From contig JAKNDB010000109.1 of the NCBI GenBank assembly GCA_024305405.1, positions 620,001 through 684,000 of the forward strand: 64,000 bases of DNA, read 5' to 3'. The position numbers were made by a program, and so were the translations under genes. The notes beneath the pieces were generated by a model. It was not told the origin of the DNA. It did not search any database and was given only the letters and a program-made list of their open reading frames with translations. This stretch comes from Dirofilaria immitis. Taxonomy: Eukaryota > Nematoda > Chromadorea > Rhabditida > Onchocercidae. Each line of letters begins with the position of its first letter. Position 1 is the first letter of the stretch. Of the stretch, positions 19,601 through 52,583 are shown in pieces.

Positions 19601-21962
19601 AGCATAATTATCCGAATTTTGGTATATGCACAATTGGTGATTTGAAAAACTCACCACCTGGAAAATTACCATCTAATATTACATTTTACATTGTACCTGA
19701 AGATAAGGTTTGTTCTAATTCAAAAATTGATTTGAAACTAAGAAATGTCAAGTATTTCCTATCTCTCGGTAATTTCTTCACCTTATTAGTATAATTTTAA
19801 TTTTGTCCTTATTCCTTAGGTGTTGTATCCAGTAATTCAAGTAATGTATTATGCAAGTACTTATTCTGTTCATAAACAATTAATCGTACTGTATTATATA
19901 ATATTAGGACAAAAAAACGTAGTTGACTTTTCGAGCATTCGTTGTTGTAATTTAATATTGAAAAATATGTTGCAGAATAAGAAAATGGATGCTATGAATA
20001 TAACGTTTGAATTTGATGGTGAGTATGAATTTAAATTTAATCACCTGGAACCAAAAAGTAGATATGAAATTCGAGCACAAGCAATCAACGAAGCTGGTGT
20101 ATCAGGATTGAGTGCTCCCGATATTATCGAAACTACCATTCCATGGGGTGAATCCTTGTTGAATATTTCTCAAAATTTATGTATGAAATTTTCGATAAAA
20201 AGAAACATAAAATTATGAGGTAGCGAGAAATAAAGGAGATGTCATTAACTTATTTTGTCAATATCATTTAAAGAAGTTTGAGAAAGAACACGAAGTTTTT
20301 CTCCATTTCTTGTATTCCTTACCAATAAAGTATGCCAGATAGTTGATTAGAAGATGTTGAGATGAATATTTCCGGATATTTATTATATTATCGGAATGAT
20401 GATTTTACAGCACCAGATGCACCCACTGATATACATTACGATTGTTCGAGAGCTTGTAAAATGGTTTGGAATGAGCCAAATAATCGTGGTTCACCGATTA
20501 TTGCATATAAATTATTTTTGAAAGAAATTGCACATACCGAAATGGTATGCCATAATACTTATATTATTACATTATAATTGATTGCTTACATAATTATTTG
20601 CCTAATCGTTTAATTTTTTGATCACTTGATTTCTTTTTCTTGAAATCAAATATGAGTAACAGGTTTAATTGCTTGATCAAAATCATTTTTTAAAGTACGA
20701 AATAATTAATAATAAAAAATTTTTTTTAGAAACATTATGGTGCCGATAGTTTTGAGCTCGATTTAGGTGCTGATGATCTCAAAGTGGATTTATCATTTCT
20801 GAAACCGCTTACTACCTACGAAGTAAAATTAATTGCTGTTAATGATGTCGGTAATAGTAATGCTCATTCAATTGTGCTTAATACATCCGGTTAATTTTTA
20901 TGCTTCTTTTCTAATTTTTTTTTTTTTTGATAGAATAAATTTTAAACTATTTTGTAAATTATCTCATATCAAAATTTTATGTAAAGAAATATGAAACATT
21001 TGGGTATTACTTTTTTCTATTATGTGATGATATTTATTGTTTATGAATTGAAAAAAAAAAAAATTAGGTTGATAAGTGAATAAAAAATTAATTAGTGAGG
21101 AATGGTTTTTGTTCCTGAAATAATCTTTTCACTAATATTTTTTGCAGAATATGTGGGAGGTGGACGTCGAGATGATAATTCCAGTTGGTTGGGAATTTTA
21201 TTGTTAATTATTACGACACTTGTATTGTTAGCTATTATCATAGATGTATTATGTTGTTTAAAGCAACGTCGTGGATTTCTAGCACTAATTTGTTCATCAT
21301 TTTTGGAATCTGATGAAGAGGAGAGTGACAGCAAATCGAAAAATGGTTTACAGAATGATAAGTTAGTTCTTTTTTTGATTGCAAAGTTTTTTGACTATAG
21401 AGTGGTAGATTTTTTTTTCTAGCATTTAGATTATAAAATGATGTTGCTGTCAGTTGCAAAGTTATGATGAAATATATGAACTTTCTCCATTAAGTTATGA
21501 GAATTATATATACGTTACTATTCAGTTCTGATGCAGTCCAATCCAGATAGTTGGCTGTTCATGTATTCTAAAATTTTGCAAAAGGAATTATTTCTTATCA
21601 GTTTAGTTCCTTTTTTAAATCATTGTTTCTTTTTTCGATAAATTCTTGCAGAACGGAAGATAATCGCTTGCTGATAGATGAAAGGAACAGTCCAACGATT
21701 ATATTGAAGTATGCTTATTAAATTTATGAAAATAAAAAAATGTCTCGATGTGGAACTAATAACCTAGAATTTTTTCTTGATTTTATCGTCCATCACCAAT
21801 TCCCAACTTCCTTTCTTTTTTCAGTGTAAATATTAAATTCAGTTTTAAATTTTGCGATAAGATTTTACAAACTTTTTGACGAATGTATAACTCTTCTAAG
21901 GATTCTTTTATTTCAGTCATGGCGAGCGATACAGAAATGGCCCACATTCAACACCTGTATAA
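10666..21962 (+). CDS. NCAM/Fasciclin II-like immunoglobulin-FN3 cell adhesion receptor (5' end missing)
   Basis: Single-pass neuronal-type adhesion molecule. Exons: 10666-10834, 14249-14409, 15145-15278, 16797-16943, 17135-17259, 17441-17599, 17738-17969, 18638-18782, 18871-19055, 19247-19346, 19565-19707, 19976-20147, 20411-20544, 20730-20889, 21148-21361, 21652-21708, 21917-21962. Every junction keeps phase once three single-base homopolymer losses (near 15244, 17479 and 17893) are allowed for; about 827 residues follow from this. Consecutive exon pairs encode Ig1-Ig5, then FN3-1 and FN3-2. Ig hallmarks are visible, for example DSGTYKC, DDGQYTC, DRGTYSC, DAGQYQC and FGKYTC. Exon 15 gives the membrane span (WLGILLLIITTLVLLAIII) and an acidic tail. 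The protein ends in STPV, a class I PDZ ligand, as in Fasciclin II. The first exon lacks a start, so the signal peptide lies further upstream. The last intron and last exon fall inside the histone palindrome arm. Confidence 0.85.
10880..11250. repeat. Intronic GATATGAT minisatellite
   Basis: Several diverged copies of a unit of about 55-60 bases containing AAATGATTTATATGATATGA and AATAGTTATC. A longer period of about 180 bases is suggested by two copies of a segment with a CTACAGAAAA/GCAATAGAAAA-like pyrimidine tract followed by AG. Confidence 0.65.
12193..12286. repeat. 47-bp tandem duplication in intron
   Basis: Two adjacent copies beginning AATATTACTTAATATATTTA and ending TCTATTCCAATTCATT, differing at a few bases. 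Confidence 0.85.
12290..12482. repeat. Foldback (MITE-like) inverted repeat
   Basis: Left arm 12,290-12,347 (CTTTATTGATTATTTATAAG, then TGAAATATTGAGTTATCATA) is matched in reverse complement by 12,423-12,482 (TAACTGTTATGATAACTTAA, then TATTTCACTTATAAATGATC). Mismatches are few and the loop is about 75 bases. The structure resembles a small non-autonomous foldback element. No target-site duplication was confirmed. Confidence 0.75.
14490..14990. repeat. Three diverged tandem repeats in intron 2
   Basis: Units of roughly 150-170 bases (about 14,490-14,640, 14,680-14,820 and 14,845-14,990). Each contains a TTATTTAT...GAATGGAATA-type start, ATTTTAATTAAAAATT, AAGCATATTT/CAAACATATTT and TTAATTAATAAA-type ends. 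They are degenerate and lie wholly inside an intron of the adhesion gene. Confidence 0.65.
16450..16648. repeat. Two-copy diverged tandem repeat in Ig2 intron
   Basis: Copies at about 16,450-16,535 and 16,564-16,648 share TTTCAGATAA(G/A)(T/C)CGTTATTTGAGTAATTA. The spacing is about 114 bases. Confidence 0.75.
17970..18637 (+). other. Intron within the Ig4 coding region
   Basis: Phase 0 to phase 0 intron, so exons 17738-17969 and 18638-18782 join directly in frame. A stretch near 18,240-18,295 can be read as SWMEDAGTVYYKQ, faintly like an Ig F-strand. It has no Cys, meets a stop at once and has no clear splice sites. I treat it as intronic. Confidence 0.5.
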
Positions 21963-23195
21963 AGCATAAAGGTGAATAAGTATTGCATCATTTAATTTTC
22001 TAGAATAACGCATTTTAATTTGATTTTTGAAATAGAATTTGCTTCGAATTTATTTATTTGTTGTGAAGCTTTCTCGGTGTGGCATCGGAAATGAGAAAAC
22101 AGTACCTCATCATGAACTTATTTATTAATTCTAACATTCATAAACATATATTTTGAAATTTGATAGAATTCCAAACGTTGTATTTTTTTTTTGTTTTTCT
22201 TTTACCTAAATATTTTAGTTCTGTAAATACACACGGCGAAATTTTGCAAATGCATTGGGAGTTCTTTGTTCGATGATAAATCATTTCGAATTTTCAAACT
22301 TTCATTCTTCGACAAAAAAGAAGCATTGATGAATTTTGGATTAATTTGTTTTTAGTATATATTAGTGAATAATATTCAAATTGTGCCTTATTAGAATGTC
22401 TTTTTTGTTGAGCTTCAAATTTCCTTTACACTACTTCAATGATGTGTTTAAGAAATTAATATCTTTGAAAATGAATTTTATCATAATGTGTTGATCGATG
22501 GATGAGGAGCCATTACAAGCACTGTTGAAGATCTGAAAAATCAATTTCAAATTTTAATGCAGCAATTCAAAAATGTTGATTTACTCATTTCTCCAAAAAC
22601 TTCAATTGATCAATCCCATTGTAATTACTCATAAGACAAAAATGCCCTGTGTTGGACCTTAAACACCAATACCATAATAGCGAACAATAATAATAATTAT
22701 AAACATTTCTGCTTATAATTTCTCGGGTCCAATATATTAAGTCATCTCATTCGTTTATTGAATTTCATTTATATATTAAAGATTAATAAAAGATCATATA
22801 ACGAAATGGTATACTGTAAAGGCATCATATCCGAAGAACATCATACACTATATCCATGCATTCGTTTTATATCGGAGTAGAAATATCGTCTGACATATCT
22901 CGGCGAGCAGTCTGTTATCATTTCTAACTTATCGTAAATTTAAGATTGTTTCGAGGTAGTTTTAATAATGACCGAAACCTCAACTTGCAAAACTTAGATG
23001 AGAATACTATTAAATAATATCGGTTACAATTCATTTTTGTGTTGGTACTCCAGTAATAAACTTTTTATTTCACTTCAATGAAACACGGAAATAAAATCAC
23101 CAAAGGTACAAGCGTAGTTCATAAATTTGTAACCTTAAAGAGAGTAATTGGATTAGGGTAACCTAACAGGTCCTATCAAATGAGACCAATCTGTA
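21963..23195. other. 3' flank of the adhesion gene and of H2A
   Basis: Non-coding, inside the left palindrome arm. A possible poly(A) signal AATAAA for the adhesion gene is at about 22,786. Minus-strand AATAAA for H2A lies near 23,066-23,071. The two genes converge here. No other gene is seen. Confidence 0.6.
23131..23146 (-). other. Degenerate histone 3' hairpin of H2A (left)
   Basis: This position aligns with the intact H2B hairpin by the shared CTTT loop and the following ACAAATTTATGAA. On the minus strand it reads TACTCTCTTTAAGGTT, in which two of six stem pairs are broken and one is a G-U wobble. A minus-strand AATAAA follows about 60 bases downstream. Confidence 0.65.
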
Positions 23196-23573
23196 TCAAA
23201 TTTCTGTTCGGTCAGTTATCTTGGGGAAGAGTGCGGCTGGAATATGTGGTAATACACCGCCTTCAGAGATCGTTACGTTCGATAGAAGTTTATCCAGTTC
23301 TTCGTCGGTCCGTATGGCTATCTGTAGATGCCGTGGGCTGATTCGTGCCTTCTTATTTTGACTTGCCACGTTGCCAGTTAACTCCAAAATTTCGGCAACC
23401 AGATATTCAAGCACTGCTGTAAGATATACTGAAGCATTGACAGCTATTCGATCAGCATAATAACCCTCACGAAGCTTCCGATGAAAACGACCGACCGGAA
23501 GGATCAATCCAGCTCTGTCAGATCTCGACTTCGCGTTCTTCACCCGAGTCTTGTTTTGCTTTTCCCCTGCCAT
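23196..23573 (-). CDS. Divergent histone H2A, left copy
   Basis: Core histone partner of H2B in the nucleosome; intronless, 125 residues. The H2A fold is clear: [17 protein letters not shown], then [40 protein letters not shown] and GGVLPHIP. Acidic-patch Glu/Asp positions (EYL, AEILE, DEE) are kept. It departs from canonical H2A in loop 1 ([12 protein letters not shown]), in the N tail ([15 protein letters not shown]) and in the short C tail [10 protein letters not shown]. The frame stays open upstream to 23,651, but the upstream ATG overlaps the TATA box, so the start is the ATG at 23,573. The protein is identical to the right-arm copy. The 3' hairpin is degenerate (see 23,131-23,146). Confidence 0.93.
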
Positions 23574-23649
23574 ATACGCGAACAACGAAAAACCGACCAA
23601 ACAGTAACTTAGGTCGGAAACAATGATGCGTAACTCGCAATAGCACGCC

Positions 23650-23656
23650 ATTTATA
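23650..23656 (-). promoter_or_regulatory. TATA box of left H2A
   Basis: TATAAAT on the minus strand, about 77 bases before the H2A ATG. The repeated TCACGT elements of this promoter are at about 23,752-23,778. Confidence 0.75.
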
Positions 23657-24469
23657 GGAATTCGGGATGATACTAAATTGAATTCTGTCAATTTTAGCTA
23701 GTCTTTCACATTTCTTTTTCCTTCATTTCTTACTTCATGCTCTTTCATGATACGTGACAAACTGTACGTGACGTGACGAGTAAACCTAATAACCATCCAT
23801 CCACAACAGTCAATCATAGTATTCAACTATATCTTTCTATGCTCTCTTCTCTATGGCAATATCAAAGAATATAATAATGCACAGAATATATTTATTATAT
23901 TGTAATTAATTTTCGATTATCATCTTTTACAACAATAGATGGGATTCCTGTGACTAAAATTCGTGGTGCATTCTGCGAATGATTCTTAATGAACATCAGA
24001 ATCAGTCATTGCTCATTTAAAAGGAATTTGAATTTTTGCTGATTAATTTGCAGTTGAATTATGAGAATTTGGAGCAATTTATAATGTATTCACATCTTTT
24101 CTAAAATTTCGAGATAAATCTAAAACATCTCGTTTGGGTTATGCTTCTCCAAAATATCCATGGATAATCTATTATATATTATCTTAAGCTTATTCTAGAT
24201 CAGAGTATCACCAGCTGTGATTCTGAGCTTTTATTTTAATACTCTAAACTTCAACTCTATTTACAAACCCGAATAAGTGTAGTAGAGTTGAAAATATCTT
24301 ACTCCTTATATATTCGTATATCGTAATGAACAATATAAATGTTTGGAAAATGAAAAAACTGGGACGAAAAATTTATTTTCAATAAGAGCTGTTTTTAAAC
24401 TCAAAAATTACCTAAGGATCCTAACCCTCACAGAATACCGATTAGAATTCACTCTCGTAACATTGTTAC

Positions 24470-24970
24470 AACGACGACAAAACTCTTTATTTCACTTCAT
24501 ATAAAATGCAGAACTATTGGAGGTGAAGGCATTCATAGATTTGTGACCTGCACATATACAAAACAAGACGAATTCACATTTTCTCTTAATACACTTTTTG
24601 TATTTTTGATAGAGCATGCTTCGCCAACTCTCCTGGAGAAATTAAGCGAACAGTTTAGGAACAAAAATCTGCAAAAAGAAATTTACAAGATACGAGAAAA
24701 GCAACAATTCAGAACACATACGATCTTTCGCAATTTATAACTTGATTCCACTTAAGCTTATCTCGTAAACAAATTCTCGAATTCTGTAAATTCCAATGTG
24801 TTGATCTGACGATTTCTGATATTTCAGTAAGAAACATATTGTCATTTTCATTTTAAATTTAACGAATCAATTGTAACGACATCTTCCCATACTTAAGGAT
24901 TCCAAAAGTATTTTCTGCTCTATTTTGAAACGACTCTAGCTGTTGCTCATCCATACGCTGATTTAAAGTT
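24470..24970 (-). pseudogene. Decayed histone H2B pseudogene with 3' UTR
   Basis: On the minus strand from 24,653 downwards the sequence follows the functional H2B 3' end closely: CTGTTCGCTTAATTTCTCCA, then GGAGAGTTGGCGAAGCATGC, against CTGTTCGATTAATTCTTCCT and GGAGAATTGGCGAAACATGC. After the lost stop, the 3' UTR also aligns (ACAAATCTATGAAT, CACCTC, GAAATAAAG). Upstream, the helix 2 and N-tail region is hardly recognisable and has many stops. It is the mirror partner of the intact H2B, which implies an older inverted duplication inside the younger palindrome. Confidence 0.75.
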
Positions 24971-25318
24971 TTATTTCTTACTATCAAACTTCTGAATGAT
25001 CAAAAAGATAACAGATAGCAGTCGTATTTTCCGTCACTTTCCGAAAATGGATATGAGGTGAGGATAACAATTCTTTATGACATTACGATATATATTAGCT
25101 AAGCATATGTCTTAGACTTCAAATCTATGGGTAAGGATGGGATAAATAGATGATATGGGTTATTTGAAGTGAATCATTTCCACAAATGATAAGGAGATAT
25201 ATTGTTCAGTGATATGGAATATATGGCAAAATGCAAACGTTAGCTATAAAAGATGTCATCAATAATTCGTCGTTGAGCAAACAATTGATATTTTGTCAAC
25301 AGATCTTGCAATATAGTA

Positions 25319-25399
25319 CATAGTTTGATCTGGCACGTAGTCTACTAGCTTTTTCCTCAAGACTGGCAATCTGGCATAGTTTGATCTGTCACGTAGGCC
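25319..25399 (+). promoter_or_regulatory. Repeated histone promoter element upstream of H2B
   Basis: Two copies, about 56 bases apart, of CATAGTTTGATCTGNCACGTAG (with an abbreviated flank). The CACGTA core is shared with the H2A promoters (TTTGTCACGTA). It probably binds a common activator; the factor is unknown. Confidence 0.5.
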
Positions 25400-25518
25400 C
25401 TCCCTATTAGATTGAAGAAGATATATTTATTTTCAATCTTGCCTTCTTCGGATTCTGGCGGGAAAATATTATCTATTGTGGGCGTGGCTTTAATGGATTT
25501 CATGCTTCCAAAAATGGA

Positions 25519-25524
25519 TATATA
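25519..25524 (+). promoter_or_regulatory. TATA box of H2B
   Basis: TATATA, 80 bases upstream of the H2B ATG, in the context ATGGATATATAGG. Confidence 0.65.
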
Positions 25525-25603
25525 GGTTGCGCAGATTCATTTCATTCATTGCACTTGGCTGTCCTTATTGCAGGAGCGGTAGCATTGGCGTGATTCTTGA
25601 GTG

Positions 25604-26005
25604 ATGGCAAAGTCATCGACGAAACAAGAAGGGAAGGAGAAGAAAGCTGAGAAGAAGGCTGAGAAGAAAGTTGAGAAGAAGCGAGGAAAGAAAAATCTTG
25701 AAGAAAAGAAGAAACGACGTACTCAACGTAAGGAGTCCTATTCGGTCTACATTTATCGTGTCCTCAAACAGGTTCATCCAGATGTTGGGATTTCGTCGAA
25801 GGCAATGTTGATAATGAATTCGTTTGTTAACGACGTCTTCGAACGAGTCGCAGTTGAGGCAAGCCGTTTGGCGCACTACAGTAAACGATCGACGATATCG
25901 GCCCGAGAGATTCAAACAGCTGTTCGATTAATTCTTCCTGGAGAATTGGCGAAACATGCTGTGTCGGAAGGTACGAAGGCTGTGACCAAATACATGAGTG
26001 CGTAG
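25604..26005 (+). CDS. Histone H2B with expanded lysine-rich N tail
   Basis: Core histone, intronless, 133 residues. The fold region is canonical: [60 protein letters not shown] and [20 protein letters not shown]. The N tail is longer than usual and built of repeated KKAEKK/KKVEKK units. The C terminus is MSA and lacks the usual final Lys. The start is the ATG at 25,604; the GTG immediately before it is not used in eukaryotes. A perfect histone hairpin follows at 26,049, then AATAAA at 26,121. It is the only intact H2B in the window, between two H2A copies. Confidence 0.95.
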
Positions 26006-26048
26006 TGGACGGTCTCACGTTTTCTACTTCATTTCCTCTGAACCCAAC

Positions 26049-26064
26049 GGCCCTCTTTAGGGCC
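26049..26064 (+). terminator. Histone mRNA 3' stem-loop of H2B
   Basis: GGCCCTCTTTAGGGCC forms a perfect six-base-pair stem with a CTTT loop, 43 bases after the stop. This is the SLBP-binding hairpin of replication-dependent histone mRNAs. A C in the first loop position is, as I recall, typical of Caenorhabditis-type nematode hairpins. Confidence 0.93.
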
Positions 26065-26694
26065 ACAAATTTATGAATTATGCTTACACCTCTGATGGTT
26101 CTATATTTTATTTGAAGCAAAATAAAGTTTTATCAATGTTCTAACAGTGTTTTACTCTATTATTTTAGCGATGGGATGTTTTCAACTCTACTACACTTAT
26201 TCGGGTTTGTAAATAGAGTTGAAGTTTAGAGTATTAAAATAAAAGCTCAGAATCACAGCTGGTGATACTCTGATCTAGAATAAGCTTAAGATAATATATA
26301 ATAGATTATCCATGGATATTTTGGAGAAGCATAACCCAAACGAGATGTTTTAGATTTATCTCGAAATTTTAGAAAAGATGTGAATACATTATAAATTGCT
26401 CCAAATTCTCATAATTCAACTGCAAATTAATCAGCAAAAATTCAAATTCCTCTTAAATGAGCAATGACTGATTCTGATGTTCATTAAGAATCATTCGCAG
26501 AATGCACCACGAATTTTAGTCACAGGAATCCCATCTATTGTTGTAAAGATGATAATCGAAAATTAATTACAATATAATAAATATATTCTGTGCATTATTA
26601 TATTCTTTGATATTGCCATAGAGAAGAGAGCATAGAAAGATATAGTTGAATACTATGATTGACTGTTGTGGATGGATGGTTATTAGGTTTACTC

Positions 26695-26721
26695 GTCACG
26701 TCACGTACAGTTTGTCACGTA
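26695..26721 (+). promoter_or_regulatory. TCACGT repeats in right H2A promoter
   Basis: TCACGTCACGTA followed by TTTGTCACGTA, about 100-120 bases upstream of the TATA box. The same core occurs before H2B. This is probably the co-regulatory element of the histone pair. Confidence 0.5.
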
Positions 26722-26816
26722 TCATGAAAGAGCATGAAGTAAGAAATGAAGGAAAAAAGAAATGTGAAAGACTAGCTAAAATTGACAGAATTCAATTTAG
26801 TATCATCCCGAATTCC

Positions 26817-26823
26817 TATAAAT
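26817..26823 (+). promoter_or_regulatory. TATA box of right H2A
   Basis: TATAAAT. Its last two bases are the AT of an upstream in-frame ATG (26,822), which therefore cannot be the translation start; the H2A start at 26,900 is preferred. Confidence 0.8.
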
Positions 26824-26899
26824 GGCGTGCTATTGCGAGTTACGCATCATTGTTTCCGACCTAAGTTACTGTTTGGTCGGTTTTTCGTTGTTCGCGTAT

Positions 26900-27277
26900 A
26901 TGGCAGGGGAAAAGCAAAACAAGACTCGGGTGAAGAACGCGAAGTCGAGATCTGACAGAGCTGGATTGATCCTTCCGGTCGGTCGTTTTCATCGGAAGCT
27001 TCGTGAGGGTTATTATGCTGATCGAATAGCTGTCAATGCTTCAGTATATCTTACAGCAGTGCTTGAATATCTGGTTGCCGAAATTTTGGAGTTAACTGGC
27101 AACGTGGCAAGTCAAAATAAGAAGGCACGAATCAGCCCACGGCATCTACAGATAGCCATACGGACCGACGAAGAACTGGATAAACTTCTATCGAACGTAA
27201 CGATCTCTGAAGGCGGTGTATTACCACATATTCCAGCCGCACTCTTCCCCAAGATAACTGACCGAACAGAAATTTGA
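26900..27277 (+). CDS. Divergent histone H2A, right copy
   Basis: Same 125-residue protein as the left-arm copy, encoded on the plus strand, so the two H2A genes point away from the centre. Promoter, coding and 3' sequences are near-identical, consistent with very recent duplication or continuing gene conversion. It has the H2A fold with an intact acidic patch but an unusual loop 1 and tails. It lies 0.9 kb downstream of H2B in the same direction. A degenerate hairpin at 27,327-27,342 and AATAAA at 27,404 suggest poly(A) 3' ends. Confidence 0.93.
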
Positions 27278-27326
27278 TACAGATTGGTCTCATTTGATAG
27301 GACCTGTTAGGTTACCCTAATCCAAT

Positions 27327-27342
27327 TACTCTCTTTAAGGTT
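27327..27342 (+). other. Degenerate histone 3' hairpin of H2A (right)
   Basis: TACTCTCTTTAAGGTT aligned to the H2B hairpin. The loop and 3' flank are kept while stem pairing is broken at two positions. AATAAA follows at 27,404-27,409. Confidence 0.65.
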
Positions 27343-28510
27343 ACAAATTTATGAACTACGCTTGTACCTTTGGTGATTTTATTTCCGTGTTTCATTGAAG
27401 TGAAATAAAAGTTTATTACTGGAGTACCAACACAAAAATGAATTGTAACCGATATTATTTAATAGTATTCTCATCTAAGTTTTGCAAGTTGAGGTTTCGG
27501 TCATTATTAAAACTACCTCGAAACAATCTTAAATTTACGATAAGTTAGAAATGATAACAGACTGCTCGCCGAGATATGTCAGACGATATTTCTACTCCGA
27601 TATAAAACGAATGCATGGATATAGTGTATGATGTTCTTCGGATATGATGCCTTTACAGTATACCATTTCGTTATATGATCTTTTATTAATCTTTAATATA
27701 TAAATGAAATTCAATAAACGAATGAGATGACTTAATATATTGGACCCGAGAAATTATAAGCAGAAATGTTTATAATTATTATTATTGTTCGCTATTATGG
27801 TATTGGTGTTTAAGGTCCAACACAGGGCATTTTTGTCTTATGAGTAATTACAATGGGATTGATCAATTGAAGTTTTTGGAGAAATGAGTAAATCAACATT
27901 TTTGAATTGCTGCATTAAAATTTGAAATTGATTTTTCAGATCTTCAACAGTGCTTGTAATGGCTCCTCATCCATCGATCAACACATTATGATAAAATTCA
28001 TTTTCAAAGATATTAATTTCTTAAACACATCATTGAAGTAGTGTAAAGGAAATTTGAAGCTCAACAAAAAAGACATTCTAATAAGGCACAATTTGAATAT
28101 TATTCACTAATATATACTAAAAACAAATTAATCCAAAATTCATCAATGCTTCTTTTTTGTCGAAGAATGAAAGTTTGAAAATTCGAAATGATTTATCATC
28201 GAACAAAGAACTCCCAATGCATTTGCAAAATTTCGCCGTGTGTATTTACAGAACTAAAATATTTAGGTAAAAGAAAAACAAAAAAAAAAATACAACGTTT
28301 GGAATTCTATCAAATTTCAAAATATATGTTTATGAATGTTAGAATTAATAAATAAGTTCATGATGAGGTACTGTTTTCTCATTTCCGATGCCACACCGAG
28401 AAAGCTTCACAACAAATAAATAAATTCGAAGCAAATTCTATTTCAAAAATCAAATTAAAATGCGTTATTCTAGAAAATTAAATGATGCAATACTTATTCA
28501 CCTTTATGCT

Positions 28511-28556
28511 TTATACAGGTGTTGAATGTGGGCCATTTCTGTATCGCTCGCCATGA
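28511..28556 (-). pseudogene. Orphan copy of the adhesion gene's last exon
   Basis: Mirror copy of 21,917-21,962, including the TTTCAG acceptor and the codons for HGERYRNGPHSTPV plus stop. No upstream exons of that gene exist on this side, so the copy is a passenger of the palindrome and not a gene. Confidence 0.9.
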
Positions 28557-29779
28557 CTGAAATAAAAGAATCCTTAGAAGAGTTATACATTCGTCAAAAA
28601 GTTTGTAAAATCTTATCGCAAAATTTAAAACTGAATTTAATATTTACACTGAAAAAAGAAAGAAAGTTGGAAGCTTTTCAGAGTATAGAAAAATTTCTCC
28701 TACCATTAAATTAAGAAAAAAATTGGGTAATTAAAGTCAAAAAATAATTTCCACACGAAACAAAATGATGTAATAATAAGTGAAATTTCCCGATTAGAAT
28801 GCTTGCTACTGTAGAAACAATTTCTTCATTTTTTTATGATTTCATCACTCCAGAGATTTTAATCTAATATTTACGTTTCAACTGCAAAACTGGTTTTGAA
28901 CTTTCTCTCATTCGGTATTATCAGGTATTATAAAGACTGTTAATCTCCTTTGTTTCCAGAAATATTGAAGTAATCGATCCGGTAAGCTGTTTCAATGTTT
29001 AGATTCAATAGCTACAATGCATGATCGGAACTAATAAAGTAGGAATCTTTTTCGTCTCTCAAATAATCTAAAAAAATATTCAAACTAATTAAATTGATAT
29101 AGCCCAATCTAGATCACTTTAGCACTCGAGTCGTTACCTTTCGGTCTATGTTAGCTTAATTTCAGTTTAATTTTATTCTTCGAGGCTTAATGATAATACC
29201 TCAGCTTTTTCATGAAAGCTTCTGAATAGATTAATCAATCTCATATTCTCGATGGATTTTTATGCGATATCGAAGTTAGTGCCATCATATGCGAAATGAT
29301 AAACTAAATTTATTTGTTGTGAAATTATTAACTTCAGTTTAAAACAGTTTAGATTTGAAACTAATTTTGAGATCTTTGTTTCTACTGACATTCTTCCTCT
29401 GACTATATCTTAAACATTAAAGAGAACAATTACGTATATGAAATAAAAATATAAAATATTTTCAAATTTAAAATTGCAAATAATCAATGTTCATTTAGGC
29501 TTTCATTTATCATTAAAAATCAGTTCCATCAAAATTTATGCGTTCGAATTCGAATTTGCAGATGATCTATTAATTACCATAATTGATGTATTTATGGCCT
29601 TAAAGAGAATCGCTGCGATTAGCTAAGTACATTGCATATTTGTTCATGTCTTAGACAAATATTTTGAAGTATGATGATAATTCGCAAGACATGAAGCGAA
29701 CGTAAGTTGACATCTTCAGCCGGTCAAACAAGAATGTTTCATTGGCCTTTTGTAATGCGAGCATCGTGAATGATTTGGA

Positions 29780-32740: not shown

Positions 32741-35700
32741 ATGGGTCAAATAGCGTCCCTTCGACGAAGAACCAATGTCCCGAATGTAACGAATGGGACA
32801 GATAATGATGATGAGAATTGTGAAATGCATCGATTTTCCAGTCATCCAGGTAAAAATATATTTTCCAATTTCGGATAAAAACATACCACAATTTATTTAG
32901 TAAATGAGGATTGATTTGCAGACATACCAAATAAATTTATTTTTTTGTGTTGTCTGTTTAAATCCAATAGAAGAAATTAATGTGACATACTATTTAATAA
33001 CATGCTGCTTAATTTGAACGTCCAATTTTTAAATTTATATTCTTCCACTCTGTAGTAAAGCAGAGAAGTTTGCCAGCGTTAGACGATTTGTGAGATTACC
33101 TGAATTGAATCTGCAAGATGTGTCTTTGTTGTTTCCCAGGAATTTTATCTAATAAACAACGATTTTTGTTTCCTTATTTGTTATTTGGAATATATTTTCT
33201 ATCTATGCCTATATATTTATAGGTATTCTTTAAGATTAAAGCCTTAAAACTTCTGAAAATTCAAGAAATAAAACTTTTTGAGGAGCCTTTTTGGTTCATA
33301 CTTCTTATTGGGAGGTGAACGATATGATTTGGCAAAACCGGAAGCTTTTTTGTTTGGCGAAAATGCAGATCTAGATGTACTTGGCAACAGATCAGTGCAG
33401 GTACATCCTTAGTACGAATATGAGTTCATACTAAACTCTTTTTAAGTCCTTATCAAGAAGTTCATGTTTATTTTACACTTGTTTTCCTGTTTAGGAGAGA
33501 TTTTGTTTCCATACTCTATAGAGTATTTTGTTCTTTAGTTCCCATACTGTAGAGTATTTTGTTCTTTAGTTCCCATACTCGAGCCAACCAGTGAATGATC
33601 CGGTGAGGACTTTGAATGCTTTAATCAATCTTCGCCGGGATTCGTTAAAACTAACAAAGTAAGTGAATTAAAGTGCACTGTAGTTGAATTTCTGTTTTTG
33701 CTTGTTACAAAGTCAGACATCACTGTCTGAAAGTTTCTTTCCAAATCATCGCGTATATATCTAATCTGATACATGAGAAAAGAGTTGGACAATCTGCATT
33801 ATATGAAAATGTTCGTGAATAAAAGAAAAAAATGAAATAACTCGTTGAGATTCAACAAGAAAAATGAATTAAAAATTGTAAAGGAAAGATTTTATATGGC
33901 TTTCTATAAAGATATGTGAAAATTTTTATCATCTTATCTAGAAATTTTGGCTTTTAGAAGCAAAAACGATGTGCAAGAGAATAATAAGAATTCGTTCTAC
34001 CTGGAATTCTATTTCGATTGTGACAGTGCTTGTTACGTACAAATTCATTTCTTTGCAAAGGAATATGTTAACGATGGGCGTATACAGTACGTTTCCTAAA
34101 ATTGTTTGAAGTTTTGCTACGTTTCAGTAGTTGTTTTGTAGATTATCGTGTCGATCCCTTATAAATGATTGTTCGGATATCTTTATTGTATGTCCCTGTG
34201 GGTATGAAAAGAACTTAATCTTGATAGTCCTCGAATCATATAAAATAGTATAGTGAAATATAAAGTACTGTTTATCACTACATTGTTATGCAAATGTATT
34301 GTTATTATCATTCAGTATCAGATCATAATAATTGAGTCGATGTTACGAAGAGGAAATATGTTGATTTTTTAATCAGCAGTTAAATTAGATGTACTCGCTG
34401 TTGACTTCTAAAGCATTTACTTGCAGATTTGTACACAAGTATCCTCAGCTGAAGTCATCAGAGCAATATTATTTTGATATTGGTGCAGAACAACATTTCA
34501 ATAAGTTCGTAATGGACACTGCTATGTATGACCTTAGTTCCGTATGTCTTTCTCTGCTTATTATATTTTTACATTAAACAAACATATTAACGCATTTCAT
34601 TTGGAGATTTGTAGTTCTTTTCCGAATAAAATCGCTGCTGTTATCTATAATTAATCATTCCAGCATCCAAAGGATAGTTGTATGCATGAGAAATTTGAAT
34701 TTTAGATGCATTATGAAAGTGGTTCCTACTTTCCGGTTGTCATCGAAATTCGTGCCGTTGATTGTGGTATCGAACAGATGCAGTCAACAATGGCTAGCAT
34801 CGAACATGCAACTGATCAATGTGCGACTTTTGTTGTGAAGGCGCTGAAACAAAAATTAGTGAGTGTTTGATTCAAATCTGGATTAAGTAGAGTAACACTA
34901 TGAAACCGTTGCTGACTTGGTTACAAGTGAAAATCAAATAATTGAATAAGTATCTAATTATTTTCTCGAACCCACTTTGATTATCGGCGACTGATTAGAG
35001 AAAACTGTCCAATATTAATTGACTGATCAATTATTTTTCCACCTTGATTTCTTGAAGACTTGAAAGAATATGTTTTTCAATACTGTCCGTACTGTTTTCG
35101 CTTGTAACAAGCTTCTAATGAGAATCAATTAATAACGAATTTTTATCAACTGATTTTTAAAGTTATCATAATACTGCATAATAGAATAATGTGAGAAAAT
35201 TCCTACTGAGGTGGAAAGATAAAACAAAACCCAGATAAAGTAAAAAATATTGCCTTTATATTATAATTTCAGTACTGTATTAAAGCATTGAAATTAAGAT
35301 TAATTTGTAGGTAGCTGATGGTGTAGTATATTTGTTACAAGAAATTTACGGGATTGAGAATAAGGAACACGATCTTGGTGATGAAAATGGATCCGAGTGC
35401 ATCATTTGTATGTCTGATATTCGTGATACTGTTATCCTTCCATGTAGACATTTATGCATTTGTAATGGATGCGCGGAAACATTGAGGTATAAGGTCAGGC
35501 TTTTTCAATTTCTCTACTTTTAAAAATGTCTTCTATCAAAAAATTTTTTTGGCTCTTTAGTTTTGTTATTCTGAAGGTGGTGAAACCTGAATAATTTCTT
35601 CCTATAATATTCGAATTATATTTTTATATTTGCATATTTCTGAAATTTTCCTATGGGAGATATGCTAGCTTATTTCCATTTCCAAGAGATTTTTCTCAAT

Positions 35701-51053: not shown

Positions 51054-52424
51054 TATGCAAATTTTCCGGATCAAAATTATATTATCGTAGAGCCAACGAA
51101 AAAAAAACCACGATTATATATTATTTCAATTGGTTTTTTAATTATGTTACAATGATATGGTTTAAATCATAGAATTTGAATCAATTATTTATTATAATTC
51201 TAATGCTATTATTCTTCATAGTAATTTAATGCTTATCCTAACTTAATTAAATTTTTATCAATTATTAATTAACAATATTCGATATATGAAAAAAAAAGAG
51301 ACAAATGTTGATTATTGTTGTGAATATTTTTGTGATAAGTAATTTGATGAAAATTTGATTATTCTCATTAAAACGATACGAGTGTTTTTGCGAGCATGCT
51401 AATATTTTTTATTTTCTGATAAAATTATTTGATGATAAAAACTGATCAATAATTGTGTTGAAATCAATCGTTGCTATCACGAAACGAAATATATGTTTGA
51501 TATGTAATTTAAAAAAAAAAAAACAATAAATGAAGTAAACAACGTTTAATTCACTTTAATTGTTTAATTTATATCAAGATTTACTAATCAATTTAATCGA
51601 TATGACAATGTATCACTGCTATAAAATTCAATTTATCATTTATCATATCAATATAAGATTTGAACATAAAATGTATGATTCTTATAAAACTTACATGAAT
51701 GCAATTAGAAGATTCGCAGGTACTGAAGAAATGTAAACAAAACAAAAATACGTTTTAGAATAGTTACGGGGAATATTTTCAACATAACAAATATCATCAA
51801 TCTGGTAAAGTATAGTGATAAATGGATCAGCATAATAAACTGATAATGCACAATGATTAAAGTATATAGGATTCTGTCTATTTATTAACTATTCAATCAT
51901 TATTTCGATTAAATCATGTCTGAATTTTAGTTAACAAATTGCGAGTTTCAAAATTAAACATATTCAAACAGATCAATGCATGATCAAATCGTTATCATAT
52001 GAAAGTTAAAAAAAGAAATAATTCGCATCATGGTTGCTAAAAGACGAACATTGAAAATCAGATAAGCTTAAAATTGAATCATCGTTGAATAGTTTCAATA
52101 TCGATACGTAATCGATTCACAAAACACATCCAAACAGATCAATGCACTATCAAATAATTATCATGTGAAATGAAGTGATTGATTTTTAAAACTGATAGTT
52201 TATGTAAATCATAACTTTTCAATTGAGATAATATTGAATAGTCTTAGTCGATGTAGAATCAATTTCTGTGTAATTTTTAAATTTTCTTGGAAAAAAAATC
52301 AAAACTTAATGATTGACATTTTTATTTAATTTGAATTATTTTCAGAAAATTTAAAAATTATTAGGAATAGTTTAAGTTAGCAAAAGCTAAACAATAGTCA
52401 ATACTTATCAGTAAAAATACTTCG

Positions 52425-52583
52425 AAATTTCATCAAGCGTAGTAGCAGACGTATCTGTCACGTTAAAAGAGGATATTTTGACGTTTCAAATATTATTTTA
52501 AAGAAATTTCATTAAATGTAGTAACAGACGTATCTGTCACGTTAAAATCGGATGTTCTCACGTTTCAGATATTATTTTAAAGA
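52425..52583. repeat. 79-bp tandem duplication
   Basis: Two copies sharing CAGACGTATCTGTCACGTTA, then AAA, and a common ATATTATTTTAAAGAAAT end, with about 85-90 percent identity. Confidence 0.88.

Follow-up and report, generated by a model that had tools for sequence, protein, structure and literature searches.

A heartworm palindrome with two identical H2A variant genes and a decayed H2B mirror copy: a probable X-linked locus with possible arm-to-arm gene conversion

Introduction

Palindromes on the mammalian X and Y chromosomes are maintained by gene conversion between their arms, as described in passages of PMC8981503 and PMC3723533. Fast-changing histone variants are also on record: the mammalian short H2A variants are X-linked and testis-expressed (passage of PMC7226823), and the copies of H2B.W convert one another (passage of PMC8857922). 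In the main-text part of a survey of H2A in 108 nematode genomes, the words Brugia, Onchocerca, Dirofilaria and filarial are absent (PMC11139335). Here a palindrome of the filarial nematode Dirofilaria immitis is analysed, in which each arm carries an identical gene for a variant of H2A (H2Av) and the spacer carries a gene for a variant of H2B (H2Bv) along with a decayed mirror copy of part of it. The whole stretch of DNA under study, hereafter the window, has a length of 64 kb (C60:620001-684000; contig C60, 6,827,947 bases, in a genome of 86,694,620 bases in 65 contigs), and positions are those of the window unless a contig is named. The palindrome and its three histone genes had been reported in a preliminary description; new with respect to it are the H2B relic in the spacer, the divergence of the variants with the loss of the H2Av stem-loop, and the probable X-linkage. 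Among the papers listed in literature searches, no title or opening part of an abstract describes this palindrome or a filarial X-linked H2A/H2B variant pair, which is weak evidence of novelty.

The palindrome and its arms

The palindrome was confirmed at 21803..28670, with an intact H2A frame in each arm and an intact H2B frame between them. Its main features are:

21803..24298, plus strand, left arm, 2,496 nt, aligned to the reverse complement of the right arm
26175..28670, minus strand, right arm, inverted copy, 2,496 nt
23196..23573, minus strand, H2Av, left copy, 125 amino acids and stop, Pfam Histone and Histone_H2A_C above cut-off
26900..27277, plus strand, H2Av, right copy, sequence identical to the left one, 125 amino acids and stop, Pfam Histone and Histone_H2A_C above cut-off
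25604..26005, plus strand, H2Bv, in the spacer, 133 amino acids and stop, Pfam scan
24459..24661, minus strand, decayed mirror copy of the 3' part of H2Bv (coding end and 3' region), two collinear BLAST pieces with controls

Aligned as reverse complements, the arms are identical in 2,491 of 2,498 columns, and all seven differences fall outside the 378-nt H2A frame. They comprise one internal substitution (24021 A/26452 G), four single-base indels in homopolymer length and two mismatches at most 8 bases from the arm ends (21810/28663 and 24295/26178). If the homopolymer indels are long-read errors, the true identity of the arms would be higher. With the right arm as query, a search of the whole genome (match counts from such searches being lower bounds) gave at least two matches, both of them the arms of this palindrome. 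No further inverted repeat was found in the window at a minimum arm length of 200 nt and a minimum identity of 85%, and none inside nine other genome stretches (104 kb in total), which had been picked for histone content or similarity rather than randomly; one stretch overlapping the window (L048) was left out.

Palindromes are a recognised assembly hazard, and one arm may in principle be a false inverted copy generated by foldback reads or a misjoin, a possibility to which the four homopolymer differences, resembling long-read errors, lend some colour. The outer flanks are distinct, however, the gene in the spacer is intact, there is one substitution between the arms, and an old inverted relic of H2B lies at the mirror position; histone proteins are also recorded on a second, longer contig, an observation of their presence and not of H2A copy number. 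An artefact is thus judged very improbable, the least probable of the explanations considered here. The preliminary description had come to the same view from the flanks, and the distinctness of the outer flanks, like the working gene in the spacer, does argue against a foldback; the left flank, however, is probably not fully separate from the arm, as the left-flanking gene would splice into it (see below).

The decayed H2B copy and the history of the palindrome

The spacer has the size previously reported (1,876 nt), but it is not wholly unique, as it contains the decayed mirror copy of the H2Bv 3' part. When the left half of the spacer was reversed and compared with the right half, positions 24459-24548 were found to match the H2Bv 3' region at 75% (93 columns, 64.0 bits), and positions 24608-24653 the end of the H2Bv coding sequence at 83% (46 columns, 45.4 bits), the two pieces being collinear. 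Since BLAST E-values are over-optimistic in AT-rich sequence, controls were run: the best score among 60 equal-sized control pieces of the window was 41.1 bits, and under stricter scoring the relic reached 70 against at most 31 across 660 control pieces. The score of 70 applies to H2Bv, eight other histone 3' regions of the genome yielding at most 35. A lenient joined alignment of 24459-24661 pairs 194 positions, of which 153 (approx. 79%) are identical, and a stop codon is present in the homologous frame of the relic. Outward from the centre, the order is H2B then H2A on both sides, the left H2B being dead; the H2B homology is separated from the left arm by 160 nt and from the right arm by 23 nt. 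No relic of H2A was found in the spacer by protein or DNA alignment. Taken together, the alignments suggest that both sides of the palindrome probably carried H2A and H2B at one time.

The history that we consider rather probable is that of an old X-chromosomal palindrome formed by a single inverted duplication, with decay of the left H2B, conversion between the arms and a divergent germline H2A-H2B dimer as its product. The duplicated block would have comprised both histone variants and probably also the 3' end of a neighbouring membrane-protein gene. Decay of the left H2B to a remnant would have left two H2A genes to one H2B, and mismatch at the left H2B would have let the inner mirror diverge, while gene conversion between the outer arms would have kept the arms and both H2A copies identical. 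Conversion is favoured over recent formation because the relic is only about 79% identical to its counterpart while the arms are nearly identical: at the divergence of the relic, approximately 448 differences would be expected in the 2,118 non-coding arm sites, against 1-3 substitutions seen. The arms would therefore be more alike than their age allows, provided that arms and relic share one origin. Of the two options in the preliminary description, recent formation and continuing conversion, the decayed inverted copy of H2B favours the second, in a palindrome that is older, but does not prove it.

Without any conversion, an old inverted H2B pair, one member of which decayed, may have been followed by a separate, very recent inverted duplication of the H2A arm. 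A single internal substitution among approximately 2,490 sites would also be expected from a very young duplication, and a near-identical inverted pair of histone loci on contig C4 indicates that such duplications may recur. Two separate events would, however, require a chance landing, as the H2B homology reaches to within 23 nt of the right arm and 160 nt of the left one, and gene order is mirrored on both sides. This sequence of events is considered unlikely, albeit far less so than an artefact.

The pair on contig C4 (216236-219548, L030, and 338872-342181, L031) is a second inverted pair of histone loci, its members lying approximately 119 kb apart. They are identical in 3,301 of 3,317 columns, with no difference in coding stretches, and carry H2B (apparently intron-bearing), H2A and H4; no stem-loop match was found in them at E values up to 0.1. 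Among the matches listed, three H2A loci match H2Av at 66% or more, and two of the three are inverted pairs. The occurrence of two inverted histone pairs fits conversion at both and also recurrent recent duplication. The main histone cluster lies at C25:119600-128000 (L028 and L029), with H2A and H2B divergent, together with H4, H3 and an H1-like frame, the last named by eye; its H3 matches in two frames, which may reflect a frameshift, an assembly error or the presence of an intron.

Divergent H2A and H2B variants

The assignment of the genes to H2A and H2B in the preliminary description is retained, with the correction that both are divergent variants. H2Av shares 69% identity with the canonical H2A of the C25 cluster across 106 residues, whereas the C25 and C4 H2A proteins are 98% identical across 125 residues; H2Bv is 82% identical to the C25 H2B across 114 residues. 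The divergence of the proteins is itself observed, and from their sequences H2Av and H2Bv appear to be divergent filarial variants. In a ten-row tree, H2Av clusters with H2A proteins of O. flexuosa and O. ochengi (support 96/96), although its exact placement is insecure, as the rows were chosen by us, its end branch is the longest and the bootstrap had not converged. All six residues of the acidic patch are retained, along with one of the two C-terminal lysines of canonical H2A, neither of which is present in the two Onchocerca proteins. The coding part is a single uninterrupted frame; the lack of an intron, and the origin of HTAS-1 within Caenorhabditis (passage of PMC11139335), led us to reject the identification of H2Av with the C. 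elegans sperm H2A HTAS-1.

The two variants also differ at their 3' ends:

26044..26088, plus strand, histone 3' stem-loop of H2Bv, RF00032, 31 bits (Rfam gathering score 34), core fold −11.3 kcal/mol

H2Bv thus keeps the stem-loop typical of replication-dependent histone genes, at a score below the gathering value. In the C25 cluster a stem-loop match is present at each of five histone genes, with 23.3 to 35.5 bits and one of the five above the gathering score. For H2Av no RF00032 match was found up to an E value of 10, and the stretch homologous to the stem-loop folds at 0 kcal/mol versus −11.3 kcal/mol for H2Bv. This stretch lies at 27315-27350 and at its mirror in the left arm, the pairing having been lost alike in both H2A copies. 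Three further Rfam matches (E of 1.2 or more) were taken as chance.

H2A and H2B work as one-to-one dimers, and the ratio of two H2A genes to one H2B, which the preliminary description had called an unusual dosage, raises the question of an arrangement selected to give more H2A than H2B. Such a device would be in keeping with the two H2A genes being intact and of the same sequence, and with the absence of a recognisable stem-loop from both of them, in contrast to H2Bv. The one-to-one stoichiometry is at odds with it, the relic testifies to a second H2B since lost, and the numbers of H2A and H2B matches are equal on C25 and likewise on C4. The count itself is correct; it is better explained by the loss of one H2B copy than by an arranged ratio, and selection for dosage is regarded as highly doubtful. 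Under the history preferred here, H2Av and H2Bv would probably form a specialised H2A-H2B dimer, with the germline most likely as its main site of use. In tissues of D. immitis, histones that are not named are higher in the uterus than in the female body wall (passage of PMC4642636), and in B. malayi the female reproductive tract shows enrichment of several histones (passage of PMC4569401).

Chromosomal location and the weight of the evidence

For both H2Av and H2Bv, the protein is on record from two contigs; the longest, at 27,526,700 bases, is not C60 and probably belongs to another assembly. The X scaffold of D. immitis measures 27.5 Mb in a single-male assembly (figure legend in PMC12562366) and 28.2 Mb in a second assembly (passage of PMC10817185). 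Because the same proteins lie on the 27,526,700-base contig and the published X scaffold has 27.5 Mb, the palindrome is probably X-linked. The best B. malayi H2B among the matches listed, at 93% across 76% of the query, is on a contig whose 24,943,668 bases equal the size given for Bm_v4_ChrX in a passage of PMC10817185. From the protein searches no genomic surroundings of the genes in other filariae emerged.

Several observations weigh against the proposed history and its germline setting. The estimate of 448 differences is rough, since the gene against which the relic was compared is itself under partial constraint. When joined, the relic alignment scores 63.0, barely above the 59.5 of the best among 92 other stretches of the window, so that confidence in the outer limits of the 203-nt relic is lower than in its two cores. 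The arms show no clear rise in GC content (0.289 and 0.317 in the non-coding parts of the left arm, close to 0.286 and 0.299 in the flanks), and GC-biased conversion was accordingly rejected. Formation of the palindrome in two events keeps real weight. In a 13-row tree, the deeper branches of which are weak, H2Bv pairs with the H2B of A. viteae (86/86) and not with the X-linked H2B of B. malayi. Finally, male-biased genes are scarce on nematode X chromosomes (passage of PMC3167187), which makes use in the female germline or the embryo as likely as use in sperm.

Neighbouring sequences

The remaining features concern the upstream region of H2Bv and the gene to the left of the palindrome:

24819..25341, plus strand, H2Bv upstream stretch, 70% similar to C21:3439424-3439951 (L035)
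21917..21962, plus strand, putative last coding exon of the left-flanking membrane-protein gene, within the left arm, by an in-frame splice that we infer
28511..28556, minus strand, mirror of the putative exon in the right arm, severed from the gene, from the arm alignment

A histone gene next to the similarity on contig C21 was considered and rejected: H2Av and two C25 coding sequences align there no better than shuffles, and no C21 match was listed in the whole-genome search with the H2Bv protein. The C21 stretch probably descends from the upstream part of a dead H2Bv copy and is read as an old relic. In the left-flanking gene, one Ig domain scores above the Pfam cut-off, alongside weaker Ig and FN3 matches and a membrane-like segment identified by eye. 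Its frame stops at 21721, outside the arm, unless the proposed splice is made, with which the gene probably extends into the left arm. Of the two arms, the left is probably ancestral, because the flanking gene would splice into it and the right arm has only the mirror of the exon. On the right of the palindrome, a RING-finger frame is found at 35311-35520; the C. elegans relatives of both neighbours (an NCAM-like gene and a RING gene) are presumably X-linked. A tandem pair of 79-nt units, 87% alike, is present at 52424-52581. Elsewhere in the genome, a search for Wolbachia rRNA gave at least five matches; the one inspected, on contig C10, resembles nuclear 18S rRNA by eye.

Comparison with known systems

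The locus resembles the mammalian X and Y palindromes in its gene-bearing, near-identical inverted arms, its probable position on a sex chromosome and conversion as the likely cause of identity; it differs in belonging to a nematode, in having arms of only 2.5 kb, in carrying histone genes and in the decayed mirror gene of its spacer. A full counterpart would need both conversion and germline expression, in mammals that of the testis, which are putative here. The C. elegans hsp16 inverted repeat is likewise a nematode gene module with a short unique spacer, and is cited among cases of conversion in a passage of PMC3966223; it consists of heat-shock genes, and that passage describes no inner decayed copy. 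The ape GSTT2 inverted duplication also looks young through homogenisation by conversion, in this case of an enzyme gene on human chromosome 22 (passage of PMC3375281).

If the single origin is correct, one locus would hold converted and escaped parts of the same palindrome, and would thus provide an internal clock for testing whether conversion protects genes on the X chromosome, which is single-copy in males. The locus further suggests that filarial parasites have a divergent H2A-H2B pair. It is possible, though we put it forward as a tentative and somewhat doubtful proposal, that filariae evolved their own fast-changing, X-linked germline H2A-H2B pair, that the heartworm H2A came to lie in a conversion-active X palindrome, and that the dead mirror H2B marks where homology, and with it conversion, was lost. 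On such a reading the locus would parallel, in a nematode, both the palindromes and the X-linked germline histones of mammals. Like the short H2A variants and H2B.W, H2Av and H2Bv are fast-changing histone variants, and like the short H2A variants they are probably X-linked; unlike the mammalian short H2A, with which H2Av was on these grounds not identified, H2Av retains an intact acidic patch (6/6) and the C-terminal region.

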